A program made the position numbers and the translations under genes. From Alloascoidea africana (Eukaryota > Ascomycota > Alloascoideomycetes > Alloascoideales > Alloascoideaceae): a DNA stretch of 64,000 bases. The stretch is from contig JAKTTT010000025.1 of NCBI GenBank assembly GCA_030581615.1, positions 62,001 to 126,000 on the forward strand, written 5' to 3'. The notes beneath the pieces are model-generated. The model did no database searches, was not told the DNA's origin, and saw nothing but the letters and a program-made list of their open reading frames with translations. This document shows positions 52,071 to 62,127 of this stretch, piece after piece; position 1 is the stretch's first letter, and every line of letters begins with the position of its first letter.

Positions 52071-52947
52071 TTTTTTTCTTCTTTTCTAGTTATTCTGATT
52101 TGATTCAAATGTTGGATGATGGAAAGAAAAACTAATGGATCGGGTGTTTGGCGGCATAAACGTGGAGGAGGACGACGGGTTATCAACATGTGATTTTGAT
52201 TCTTAACAAAGGTAGAATATAGCGATGAGAAGTGGTGGACACATTGAACAAGGAAAGGCTATCACGAATGTGGTCAGATTAATGAGCACGAAAGGAATAG
52301 GGAGTCGAAATCAGCTACAGACTATGTTTTAGATCTGAGCAAGAAAAACTGGAATCAAAAAGCATGAACTCTTTCTAACAATTCTCTCTTCACCAACAAT
52401 GCAAATTGGAGAGATGTGAATGAGTTGACGGGACTGGATATCTTGAAACCGGTGAGACACGTTTCCGTGGTTCCCATCAGTACCAACCTGGTTTTTTCTT
52501 TTCCCTATTGATTTTGAAAATTTCTAGAAGAATCGTGGTTGAAGTTCTCCATATCTTTTTAAAACCTTATCCTGTACAAAACTGAAGACTTTAGTATCTA
52601 CCGCTTTCCTCCAGCAAACGTGTTGAAGTGCGCCTTATCAGAGTCCCTGAAAACCCCCCATACGGAAGATTTGGTTTTACTGACATACGCATTATAATCG
52701 ATAAGAATACGTGCTATTAAAACGAATATATCATTCTTAAATATGTGAGATTCATCACGTTAGTTCATTTTAACATTATGGCCCACAGCACCATCATCAT
52801 ATCACGGTTTTTTGGGCATAGTTGGGTAGATCAACTCAAGGATTACTGGAAGGTCCTAAAATCCCCATTCATTTTGTCTTTTACTAAAAGTATCAATTTA
52901 TCCTATATGTAAGCGAGAGTGAAGCAACCCATGATCTCAGTGGAAAC
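52071..52947. other. TMA7 upstream region
   Basis: About 0.88 kb with no recognised gene, ending at the mobile-element island. Confidence 0.4.
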
Positions 52948-53341
52948 TGTTAGCCTCGGATGGGTGATCTCCTCACTCTCTAGTAGTGAGGCTTAGATAG
53001 GTCTATATAAGTAGCCCATCCGTTCCCCCTCATGGGGAAGAATGAGCGATTCTAGTGTTGTTTGTAGCCTCTCGCTTTTTCGAACTCTTACATGGAGGTC
53101 GTGCCTGGTTCCTTCTGGCTCACACACTACTATGTCTACTTCTTCTTCTACGCAACCCTCAGCTCTATCCTCAGCGGACTTGGCCTCGCTGATTGCTGCA
53201 ATTACGGCGGCATCACAGACGGCCAGCGTTCAGGGGCTCTCCGCAGCAGCCAAAGAATCTGCACAGGACGTGGAGCTTGCCAGGTCTTGCAAATTCCTAC
53301 CGGCCTGGCAAGCTCCACGTCCTGTGCAGATTCTTTGGCTG
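52948..53341 (+). mobile_element. LTR-retroelement fossil: solo-like LTR plus start of a gag-like frame
   Basis: A 145-bp LTR-like unit (52948-53092) begins TGTTAG and ends TTACA, with a TATATAAG promoter box near 53004. It is followed by a short leader beginning TGG and by a gag-like frame from ATG 53132 (Ser/Ala-rich, MSTSSSTQPSALSSADLASL). Only this 5' end is present; no pol region or second LTR was found, so it is a broken remnant. The family (copia or gypsy) cannot be told. The remnant ends in a short perfect inverted duplication. Confidence 0.4.
53247..53341. repeat. 38-bp perfect palindrome with 19-nt spacer
   Basis: Left arm 53247-53284 and right arm 53304-53341 are exact reverse complements (CAGCCAAAGAATCTGCACAG...); the spacer 53285-53303 is 19 nt. 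The right arm ends the gag-like similarity, so it is an inverted copy of the left arm rather than element sequence. Confidence 0.95.
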
Positions 53342-53382
53342 ACTTTGTACAATTCTCAAAAACATAGTTTCAAAAACATTTA

Positions 53383-55185
53383 ACGTAGTTCACATGAACG
53401 TTCCAGCAACCATGCCCCTACACTATTCAATAGACAATTGAAACACAACCGCAATAAAAATCTACTTGGTATTACCCTTATCTGAATCTCTAGACATTTC
53501 TACATCTTTTTTACAAGTCCGCGAATTATGACCAACATTCCCGCAAGTACGACATCGCCGAAACAGTCGCCGCAGCTTGCCTCGACCTGCCACCAGATTG
53601 CCTTGTTTCATGAGCTACCTGCTTATCCACCTCCTTCTGAGCTATAAGGTCTTGACCTTCTCCTACCGAAAGGGCTCCTCCTAGATGTATGCGTGTCTTT
53701 GTAGCCCTTCGGCGCTTGCTAAATCTCTCATTCGCCTCGCGAAGTGACTTGTTCTCAGCGTGCCGGAGGGCCTCCCGGTGCATAAAAGACTGAGCTCCTT
53801 TAGAAATCTTGTCAACAGCTTCATCAATTGATGTTGGAGAGCTGCTCTGGTGTCGGGCAATTCGATCTTTGATGTAGGCAGACTGCGAAGCGGCTTGTTG
53901 AAGGGTCTGCGGCGTCGAAGAGACCCAAGGGTCAGTCTCTAGTAGGAGGAGCCAGTTGGTGTCGGAGTCCGTAACTTCACATCCAGCTTGCCAAGGACAA
54001 CTTCAGGGTCATGAGGCACTAAACCTGATCCCTAAATCCGCCCTTGATGTTTTGTATTGTGAAAACCGAGCTGAAGATGGTTAAGAGGGCAGCAAAGAAA
54101 TCGACCTTGGTGATGTGGGTAGTATGGTACTTCATACGCTCCTAAATCTGTTGACTATTTGCCTTCTTAAACGGACTGAACTGACCAACATCAAGCGGCT
54201 GCAGTCCATCGTCGTGAAGGGGGCCTACCACCTCGGCAATTGGTACTCAGAGAACAACCTCCCGCATTCCTGGGTCATCAAACCTACAGAAAATGGATGG
54301 ACAAATAATTCTACTGGCCTCGATTGACAAACATACAATAGGTCGAGGCCAGTAGAATTATTTGTCCATCCATTTTCTGTAGGTTTGATGACCCAGGAAT
54401 GCGGGAGGTTGTTCTCTGAGTACCAATTGCCGAGGTGGTAGGCCCCCTTCACGACGATGGACTGCAGCCGCTTGATGTTGGTCAGTTCAGTCCGTTTAAG
54501 AAGGCGTATAGTCGACAGATTGAGGATCGTATGAAGTACCATACTACCCACATCACCAAGGTCGATTTCTTTGCTGCCCTCTTAGCCATCTTCAGCTCGG
54601 TTTTCAAAGTACAAAACATCAAGGGCGGATTTAGGGTATCAGGTTTGGTGCCTCATGACCCTGAAGTTGTCCTTACCAAGCTGGATGTGAAGTTACGGAC
54701 TCCGACACCAACTGGCTCCCCAACCTTCGGCGTTGATTCCCTGGATAACCGTGACCCATTCCCGGTTACCAGGCTGTAGTGTCTTGGCCTTTCCTCTTCT
54801 TTCAGAACCTGTAACTGCCGTAGAGGATGATATCACACCTAGCATAAAGCCCGTCTCATCAAAATTGTAAAAATCGGCATCAACAACACCATGCTTGGCT
54901 CTTAAAGCGTGCCTTGAGCTCTGGTTGTCGCTTGACGAAGTGTGTAGCCCAGTGCTTCCTGACTCGTCCGCCATCACGCTCTGCGAGCAGGAGATTAGCC
55001 ATATCTTCAACTCTAGAGAGGTGGGGAGAAAATCATTGGGCATCAAGGTTAAGGATGAGCTTGACTAGATTCTCCTCTTCTAGCTGGGTCAACCGCATCG
55101 AATTGGCAGGAATATGAATGGGGAGGTTAGGTAGAACAGGAGAAGGTGGAGTGTACGGTTGTGTGGAATGTTCGCATGTGAACGT
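53383..55185 (-). mobile_element. pogo-family (DDE/Tc1-mariner) DNA transposon, rearranged by internal inverted duplication
   Basis: About 1.8 kb, bounded by TA duplications (53381-53382 and 55186-55187) and imperfect terminal inverted repeats (left ACGTAGTTCACATGAACG; right end reads ACGTTCACATGCGAAC on the minus strand, both continuing TTCCA..CAACC). Coding pieces match the fungal pogo transposase. On the minus strand: LTQLEEENLVKLILNLDAQ (about 55100-55044), the DDE start DFYNFDETGFMLGV with REWVTVIQGINAEGW, then SWVIKPTENGWTNN, and at the left end REANERFSKRRRATKTR, GGALSVGEGQDLIAQKEVD and a zinc-knuckle-like HNSRTC. The N-terminal DNA-binding domain is largely missing, part of the catalytic core is deleted, and the middle is an inverted duplication, so it cannot be active. 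Confidence 0.88.
53949..54719. repeat. long inverted repeat (375-bp arms, 19-nt loop) inside the pogo element
   Basis: Left arm 53949-54323 and right arm 54343-54719 are reverse complements around the 19-nt spacer 54324-54342. The inner 163 bp (54343-54505 against its partner) are identical. In the outer part I count about eleven substitutions and one 1-base indel, so the arms are about 97% identical overall. Each arm joins transposase middle and C-terminal sequence in opposite directions, so both arms carry the same aberrant junction (at ACGACGATGGAC), and one arm is a copy of the other. Confidence 0.93.
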
Positions 55186-55187
55186 TA

Positions 55188-55822
55188 GCTTTACTGTTAA
55201 GTTATCTGTTATTTAAGAAACACAACATAGTTCATCAATATAAAGCATCTCTTTGAGATATCATAAAATATCCGCATGATTTGTGAAAATAACAAAGGGA
55301 AGGTCAGGTAGACATTTCGAATTGTGTTTGATAATGGAATAGAACAGTAGCCGTACTATTGATCCTGACGGATGATACTATAAATCCTCACAACAATATT
55401 GCGCGATGATTTGTCTATCCCAGAGTAGAGAAAACAACGGTACTGTATAATTTTACAAATAGTACACAGTCTTAACAGTGTTTCTTCTGGCTCTTCACCA
55501 GGAAGCAAGGCAAGGCAAGACAAGACAAGTGCGTTTAGTGTTACTAACCAACCTGAGCTTCAAGAAATATGAGCGTTAACGTAGAACCTCCCCGTAAAAC
55601 AGCTCTGTATCGAAGACTCGTCATGTATCTCGTGAGAACATGAGTGCCGTGCACATTTGTAGATACACGGTTTCGTAAAGAATAACAATCGTTACAGGTA
55701 TGGTACGATAAATAAAAACTCTGAACTCGATTGATTATCATCAATTACCCCCGAAAAAAAAGAAGATACTAGTACTAAACTAAACTGATATTTAAAGCAG
55801 ATAAATATACTATGCCAAATTT
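55188..55822. other. spacer between the transposon and HRD1
   Basis: AT-rich, no gene seen. It includes a short AAGGCAAGGCAAGACAAGACAAG repeat tract near 55506-55528. Confidence 0.4.
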
Positions 55823-61449: not shown

Positions 61450-62127
61450 TTAACGGTATCTCCACAAGCTGAGAGTATTGTGTTTCTTCCAAGTATGTCT
61501 TCTTCCAGCCTTGGTGTTATTATAACGATGACCCTTGTTAATTCCTCTACTCTTCTTACCAACCGAAGTGAGGCCACGTTGTTCACGATGCTTATGAACA
61601 GGGTTAACAATCCAATTGTAACGAGGATCCGAACGAATCACTGCATGTTGAGGATCAACAAGAATAACCTCAAAATACTTGTAAGTAGAGTCCTGATTAA
61701 TCCAATAGGAATTCAAAACTCTCAAGTTCGCAGCCCGACGTCCAACACGTTCTTCCGCAGTCGATTGCAACGATTTTTGATACTTGAGTTGCGTAACACC
61801 TTGGTTCGTGGGCTTACCATAGGTGGCTCCCTTGGGAACAGGTCTCTTACGACCACCACGACGAACTCGAATACGGTAAACAACAAACCCTTGCTTCGCC
61901 TTATATCCAAGACGACGGGCCTTATCCGGACGTGAAGGTCGTGAAGCACGATGAATAACGTTTAATTGACGATATTCCCAACATCTAACCCGATGCAAAA
62001 AACGATACACATCAGACTGCTTCTTTCTGCTGAGCTCCTCAATGTACTTGTAAGCTCCCACTATCAACCAAAATTGTTAGATCTTGGAATCGTAATGTAC
62101 TACATTCATTCATGACAATTACTCACT
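61450..62127 (-). CDS. RPL15: 60S ribosomal protein L15, start codon split by an intron
   Basis: Large-subunit ribosomal protein eL15 of 203 residues (GAYKYIEEL..., [53 protein letters not shown], ending LSLWRYR). eL15 proteins begin MGAYKY. The genomic frame upstream of GAYKY has no ATG; instead TAG|TGGGAGCTTAC is an intron acceptor. The donor GTGAGT is at 62126-62121, directly after an A (62127). Splicing out 62126-62061 (66 nt, branch ATCTAAC) joins A to TG and creates ATG GGA GCT. So the coding sequence is base 62127 plus 62060-61450. Upstream exon sequence contains no other ATG near the junction. Confidence 0.93.
62061..62126 (-). other. RPL15: intron splitting the RPL15 initiation codon
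   Basis: 66-nt intron read on the minus strand: donor GTGAGT, branch site ATCTAAC 14 bases before the acceptor, acceptor GATAG. It interrupts the start codon after its first base. Confidence 0.9.

Follow-up and report, generated by a model that had tools for sequence, protein, structure and literature searches.

Could the long inverted repeat found in the genome of the yeast Alloascoidea africana serve as a source of small RNAs and, if so, what would these RNAs silence? The repeat lies in a 64,000-nt stretch of DNA (hereafter, the window), which corresponds to positions 62001–126000 of contig C25 in a genome assembly of 23.18 Mb (138 contigs). The original prediction held that the repeat is made of transposase sequence, that a transcript through it would fold into near-perfect dsRNA matching pogo transposase mRNA, and that related copies could thereby be silenced. 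Based on the analysis described below, we consider it rather probable that the element is a dead pogo-like transposon whose core was replaced by a fold-back, that it would act as an siRNA locus, and that this locus has no evident target in the present assembly.

Structure of the Pogo-Like Element

The features of the locus are listed in Table 1. The ends of the element, which were read by eye against eight related copies, show the TA target duplication typical of pogo/Tc1-mariner elements and terminal inverted repeats (TIRs) like those of these eight relatives. Along with the frames of the relatives, these ends support the pogo-like transposase origin that had been suggested. Among the four window segments scanned with the DDE_1 profile, only segment D gave a match (E-value, 0.094), which is below the cut-off, and one of the three frames of the relatives passes (L061:3086–3379; E-value, 2.6 × 10−9). 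L061 aligns to window segments B and D at 54% and 43%, respectively.

Table 1. Features identified at the palindromic locus (window coordinates).
Feature	Position	Strand	Remarks
5' fragment, Ty3/gypsy-type in appearance	52948–53308	+	86–89% copies at C3, C51 and C12; points toward the palindrome
Hairpin 1, arm 1	53247–53284	+	Native sequence of the gypsy-like element
Hairpin 1, spacer (19 nt)	53285–53303	.	
Hairpin 1, arm 2	53304–53341	−	First 5 bp (CCTGG) also in unrearranged L070; other 33 bp are an inverted copy
Pogo-like element	53383–55185	− (coding strand)	TA duplications at 53381–53382 and 55186–55187; 3 bp lost from right TIR
Segment E, transposase C-terminal region	53529–53948	−	Native continuation of arm 1; open frame, tblastn match, shared copies
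Palindrome arm 1	53949–54323	−	Segment D (53957–54201, minus) and inverted segment B (54208–54324, plus)
Main spacer (19 nt)	54324–54342	.	Plus-strand frame starts inside and reads DKHTIGR into arm 2
Palindrome arm 2	54343–54719	+	Segment B (54342–54458, minus) and segment D (54465–54722, plus)
Segment A, transposase region with NFDETGF stretch	54726–54905	−	58% to L024 frame; stops before the expected place of segment B
Transposase N-terminal region	54949–55137	−	One internal stop; 44% to L061 frame

The native order of the segments was set from translated frames of the decayed pogo-like relative L061 (C58) and of L024 (C122). Read along the minus strand, the window element consists of the N-terminal part (55137–54949), A, D inverted, B sense, the loop, B inverted, D sense, and E (53759–53565), which gives the transposase the order A / D' B – loop – B' D / E. 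Absent from the window element is segment C, which in the relative takes up about 55 residues between B and D and is expected to contain the later catalytic aspartates; the NFDETGF stretch of segment A presumably holds the first catalytic Asp. With segment C gone and the frame scrambled, the element lacks the complete catalytic core of an autonomous transposon. Segment D carries one frameshift and one stop in arm 1 and is open over 86 aa in arm 2. The open frame of segment E spans 53529–54002, and its tblastn match to L061 (41%) covers 53565–53759. The DKHTIGR frame that emerges from the spacer is probably the native continuation of segment B and resembles, by eye, DKYT in L061. Thus the element has kept its two flanks, its core has been scrambled and inverted and has lost a part, and the two arms differ by 3%.

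Upstream of the element lies a fragment that looks like the 5' part of a Ty3/gypsy-type element, an assignment that rests on the reading of a protease-like frame in its C12 copy (L072). The fragment contains a TATA-like site, TATATAAG, at 53004–53011, as well as an ATG at 53132 that opens a frame for which gag is our guess. Judging from these letters, it is plausible that the fragment might act as a read-through promoter into the palindrome.

Geometry and Predicted Folding of the Palindrome

The two arms are separated by exactly 19 nt, and their gapped alignment (377 columns) contains 11 substitutions and one 1-nt indel, which corresponds to 96.8% identity. The innermost 163 bp are perfect; under an even spread of the 12 differences, such a clean inner stretch would be expected with P of about 0.001. 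The seed measure, obtained by adding 13 to the count of exact 14-mers that lie on a single inverted diagonal, with a spacer of up to 700 (a value of 13 denotes zero seeds), was 229 for the window and 13–15 for 20 first-order Markov versions. The main inverted repeat is far beyond chance. RNA folding of the palindrome gave −751 kcal/mol, compared with −231 ± 8 kcal/mol for 20 shuffles. These results confirm the arm positions, identity of about 97%, spacer and perfect inner part reported in the original prediction, and the computed folding agrees with its claim that a transcript would form near-perfect dsRNA. The claim that the arms are made of transposase was correct as to their derivation, but each arm consists of two transposase pieces placed head to head, in opposite orientation. 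The long inverted repeat and short spacer are those expected of a hairpin transcript from a palindromic siRNA locus of budding yeasts. When the differences were polarised by eye against L061, arm 1 received the indel and four substitutions, and arm 2 a single substitution, all others being ambiguous or silent; these are too few for a conclusion.

Proposed Fold-Back Origin

About 600 bp upstream of the main palindrome there is a second, smaller hairpin (hairpin 1, 53247–53341), on which the original prediction was silent. It has 38-bp arms with 100% identity and a spacer of the same length, 19 nt. In the unrearranged copy of the gypsy-like element on C3 (L070), CCAGG and CCTGG likewise enclose 19 nt, and beyond them its sequence is no longer that of the window, in which the 5-bp stem is followed by 33 bases of inverted arm 1. 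Since L070 has the same stem and 19-nt loop and then diverges, hairpin 1 fits fold-back primed synthesis, and it probably arose by fold-back repair, as proposed for the main palindrome. This view draws on L070 as the one informative copy out of three, as L071 diverges at an earlier point, and L072 has a rearrangement of its own close to the turn. A short stem pre-existing at the turn in an unrearranged copy was seen for hairpin 1 only. For the main palindrome, the genome DNA search yielded no unrearranged parent, and the priming stem is putative. TCGA / TCGA stands at its turn (by eye), and both this stem and the DKHTIGR frame are suggestive of the same mechanism. L048 was considered as the unrearranged parent and rejected, as its match is partial (73 bp).

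According to the proposed mechanism, a break inside the pogo-like element would have been followed by repair synthesis with a template switch, from segment D to segment B. The synthesis would then have folded back on a short stem across the 19-nt loop, the strand would have copied itself (B', then D), and the copied strand would finally have been joined to segment A. Inverted duplications that turn at a short stem are also known from Saccharomyces cerevisiae, where foldback inversions use hairpin stems down to 4 bp, and the loops are larger (median, 36 nt) in Mre11/Sae2-proficient strains (PMC7467729). The 19-nt loop of the window falls within their large-loop class (at least 15 nt). Unlike those events, which are gross chromosomal rearrangements, the event proposed for the window took place inside one element and was rejoined to that element.

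A second case was found on C8 (L064:2470–3378), in a stretch picked blind to content. This gypsy-like palindrome has 394-column arms that are 98.7% identical, with the inner 318 perfect, and, unlike the window palindrome, it has 89–92% relatives on C68 and C63. In its layout, which is similar to that in the window, the arm–loop–arm unit stands between another part of the element and a native flank: at one outer end the sequence continues natively, into a presumed LTR, and at the other it is linked to a different region of the element. In C68 its two gypsy-like segments are separated by 333 bp, so that it carries an internal deletion relative to C68. Against the proposed mechanism, the jump between these two segments is a deletion and not an inversion.

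Related Copies and the Search for a Target

A DNA search with positions 52900–55400 revealed at least 36 other places in the genome that match about 53429–53929 at 82–90%, a lower bound, as 40 of the 100 candidates were scored. At 25 of the 28 relative loci examined (L031–L058), a piece starting at 54858–54871 follows within a few bases, and no such piece was reported for L031, L054 and L057. The 36 dispersed relatives are internally deleted copies without roughly 53930–54861, that is, without both arms; their length is 1,094–1,165 bp in the eight with ends inspected. The arms themselves match one other place only at an E-value of ≤0.001 (87 bp, 76%, on C58), in a genome DNA search of a kind that may overlook a single match of 22 nt. 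Among the loci compared with the palindrome, other than that of the window itself, exact matches did not exceed 15 nt.

Similar results were obtained at the protein level. Besides the window, the search with segment D returned C58 (43%), C122 (39%) and two distant frames (27–30%). The DDE_1 search of the genome yielded 19 places, and among the frames of at least 90 aa from these loci only the decayed L061 and L024 were close, the others having no more than 36% identity over at least 39 residues. The check for intact pogo copies, which the original prediction had proposed, thus found none among the close relatives: neither the DDE_1 profile nor the segment D protein search revealed an intact close transposase relative or an autonomous copy. 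As no close copy of the arms was found, no siRNA target is evident, with the caution that assemblies can miss copies. The idea that the locus silences related copies is not supported, given arms without a close match and dispersed relatives without the arm region, and it is very unlikely that the locus now silences another element in this genome. Its role would be limited, at most, to the memory of an autonomous pogo that has since been lost and would not extend to silencing related copies today.

RNAi Genes

The original prediction would fall if the genome had no Argonaute or Dicer genes; this refutation fails, since an Argonaute and RNase III proteins with two dsRNA-binding domains (dsRBD) are present, and the assignment of the latter as Dicer is putative. 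The Argonaute on C28 combines PIWI, PAZ and linker-1 domains in one open frame (1,068 codons, stop to stop). Its best PDB match is KpAGO, and the D, E, D and H positions are conserved, as read from the alignment. RNase III matches were found at five places in the genome, three of which (on C2, C35 and C6) were examined. In all three proteins, an N-terminal RNase_3_N domain is accompanied by an RNase III domain and by two stretches of dsRBD. By reading, those encoded on C2 and C35 keep the motifs that we take to mark the active site, and the C6 copy does not. In the PDB searches with the C2 and C35 proteins, entries named Ribonuclease 3, which we take to be yeast Rnt1, came ahead of Kluyveromyces polysporus Dcr1; in sequence, neither of the two is closer to Dcr1 than to Rnt1, and what points to a Dicer role is the presence of a second dsRBD. 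In terms of domain make-up, the genome carries an Argonaute gene and, among the RNase III copies, candidate non-canonical Dicer genes. Neither an RNA-dependent RNA polymerase (RdRP) nor a canonical Dicer (Dicer_dimer) was found in the genome profile searches, in which the respective controls matched nothing either, so the absence of both is unproven. The gene pattern fits that of a budding yeast with RNAi (PMC5499181).

Candida albicans has Ago1, a non-canonical Dcr1 and Cdl1, an apparently inactive Dicer-like protein (PMC7175516). Like it, Alloascoidea africana has an Argonaute, a candidate non-canonical Dicer with two dsRBD stretches, and a catalytically degenerate paralogue; unlike it, Alloascoidea africana has, by reading, two RNase III copies that keep the motifs along with one degenerate copy. 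The latter (L007, C6:123890) is the third two-dsRBD RNase III, and its degenerate active site (by reading) makes it comparable to Cdl1. An introduced hairpin gave no silencing in C. albicans despite Ago1 and Dcr1 (PMC7175516), so the RNAi genes alone are no proof of silencing.

Possible Silencing Function and Alternative Explanations

Transcription of the palindrome, perhaps by read-through from the gypsy-like fragment, would produce an RNA ideal for a two-dsRBD RNase III and Argonaute, which would yield siRNAs; on the analysis presented here, we give the locus about an even chance of doing so. That long inverted repeats are an siRNA source in Naumovozyma castellii, as stated in the original prediction, is confirmed by PMC7528652, in which palindromic loci are a main siRNA source, with 74.1% of the classified 22–23-nt wild-type reads. 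The window locus shares with those loci the long inverted repeat, the short spacer, and a host with Argonaute and a two-dsRBD RNase III (PMC7528652). Another likeness is that no RdRP was found in Alloascoidea africana, in a search without a positive control. It differs in that it is known from sequence alone and in that a present target was not found in the assembly. Another close counterpart is Mu killer of maize: both are partial inverted duplications of the transposase gene of a DNA transposon, with an internal deletion, and both have a possible read-through transcript (PMC3440606). The locus differs from Mu killer in that it derives from pogo, not MuDR, that its arms are chimeric, that an active target was not found and that silencing is putative.

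As for how the palindrome came about, a fold-back chimera of assembly or amplification would be a highly improbable explanation. Polymerases also make short-stem fold-backs in vitro, which counts for such an artefact, as does a long inverted repeat elsewhere, on C16, that stops exactly where the contig does; the arms, however, differ at 12 positions, and it is because of this divergence that we judge an artefact unlikely. In addition, both flanks run into sequence of the same element, and similar palindromes span 80 to 100% identity. Still less credible is the idea that two related elements were inserted independently and in opposite orientation. Other mobile sequences do adjoin these elements at several loci, but the arms have in common the unnatural D/B junction, on account of which a nested insertion was likewise judged unlikely; moreover, no TIR was seen at the arm ends, by reading, and the genome DNA search yielded no other close copy of the arm sequence.

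Accepting fold-back repair as the origin, the palindrome may be without function, a repair scar in junk DNA that is never transcribed or processed. This is a serious possibility, although we lean against it: the target was not found in the assembly, arm 1 is interrupted by a frameshift and by a stop, and the arms of other palindromes are down to 80% identity, as for unselected scars, but the truncated retroelement upstream has a TATA-like site and is oriented towards the palindrome, and the genome encodes an Argonaute and RNase III proteins in open frames. At the other extreme, the locus may have been selected like Mu killer, i.e., retained as its siRNAs suppressed an autonomous pogo that was later lost, which we consider distinctly unlikely. 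The arms cover the core lost by the short relatives, so that only an autonomous copy would be targeted, and such a copy was not found in the DDE_1 and segment D searches. Loss of autonomous elements, however, is common without RNAi, which counts against selection; no target was found in the assembly, and nothing shows selection. The homologous active element that Mu killer-like silencing would act on was not found as a close DNA or protein copy, in an assembly that may be incomplete. The partial inverted duplication of a transposase gene is present here as in Mu killer and speaks for the selected locus, but even for Mu killer short antisense transcripts have been proposed as an alternative to the long hairpin (PMC3440606). 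The reading that we prefer to these alternatives is of a dead transposon with a fold-back core that may yield siRNAs.

Palindromes Elsewhere in the Genome

A scan of 319,454 bases (alignment score of at least 70, spacer of up to 420) revealed 16 inverted repeats. The sample, which is weighted towards mobile elements, consisted of the window, the examined loci (eight duplicate or superseded ones left out) and six 10-kb stretches picked blind to content. Two palindromes lie in the window, eight in the 28 pogo-relative loci, four around three DDE_1 loci (re-examined as palindrome-bearing; the other 16 of the 19 DDE_1 places gave none), one in L072, and one in the 60 kb picked blind. A rate of one palindrome per 60 kb would correspond, with a very wide error, to some hundreds genome-wide. 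The arm identity ranges from 80 to 100%, and the frames that were read by eye include pogo, gypsy-like and RecQ-like helicase sequences. The palindrome of L056 may be an inherited feature of the element, not an independent event, as it occurs once more elsewhere on C2.

We rejected the idea that inner homogenisation is the rule: the inner halves of the 16 palindromes have 232 differences and the outer halves 158. Differences are more numerous inside in eight palindromes and outside in four (window, L064, L072 and L040), equal in one, and lacking in three. Among the palindromes with differences, a long perfect innermost run was found only in the window (163) and in L064 (318).

We found no account of the origin of palindromic siRNA loci in the literature searched. 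Hairpin 1 shows the pre-event stem and loop in an unrearranged copy, and palindromes are frequent enough to count; it is thus testable whether fold-back repair keeps feeding new triggers to an RNAi system seemingly without an amplifying polymerase. A dispersed library of perhaps hundreds of transposon hairpins, made continually by fold-back repair and kept as an RNAi memory in the absence of RdRP, with a role like that of piRNA clusters or Mu killer, would be an unlikely extension. The locus gains in interest from the sign that many such hairpins are made in this genome and from the direct view of the origin of one of them.

Three palindromes outside the window may also be mentioned. On C16, an inverted repeat of 590 bp (92%) that belongs to another pogo-like element (L059:3794–5115) ends exactly at the contig end, which suggests that palindromes can break the assembly. 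On C12 (L072:121–850), a 324-column palindrome with 93% identity and a 94-nt loop contains, by reading, gypsy-like protease sequence. The arms of the palindrome on C9 (L060:3325–3850) encode, also by reading, an apparent RecQ-like helicase fragment.
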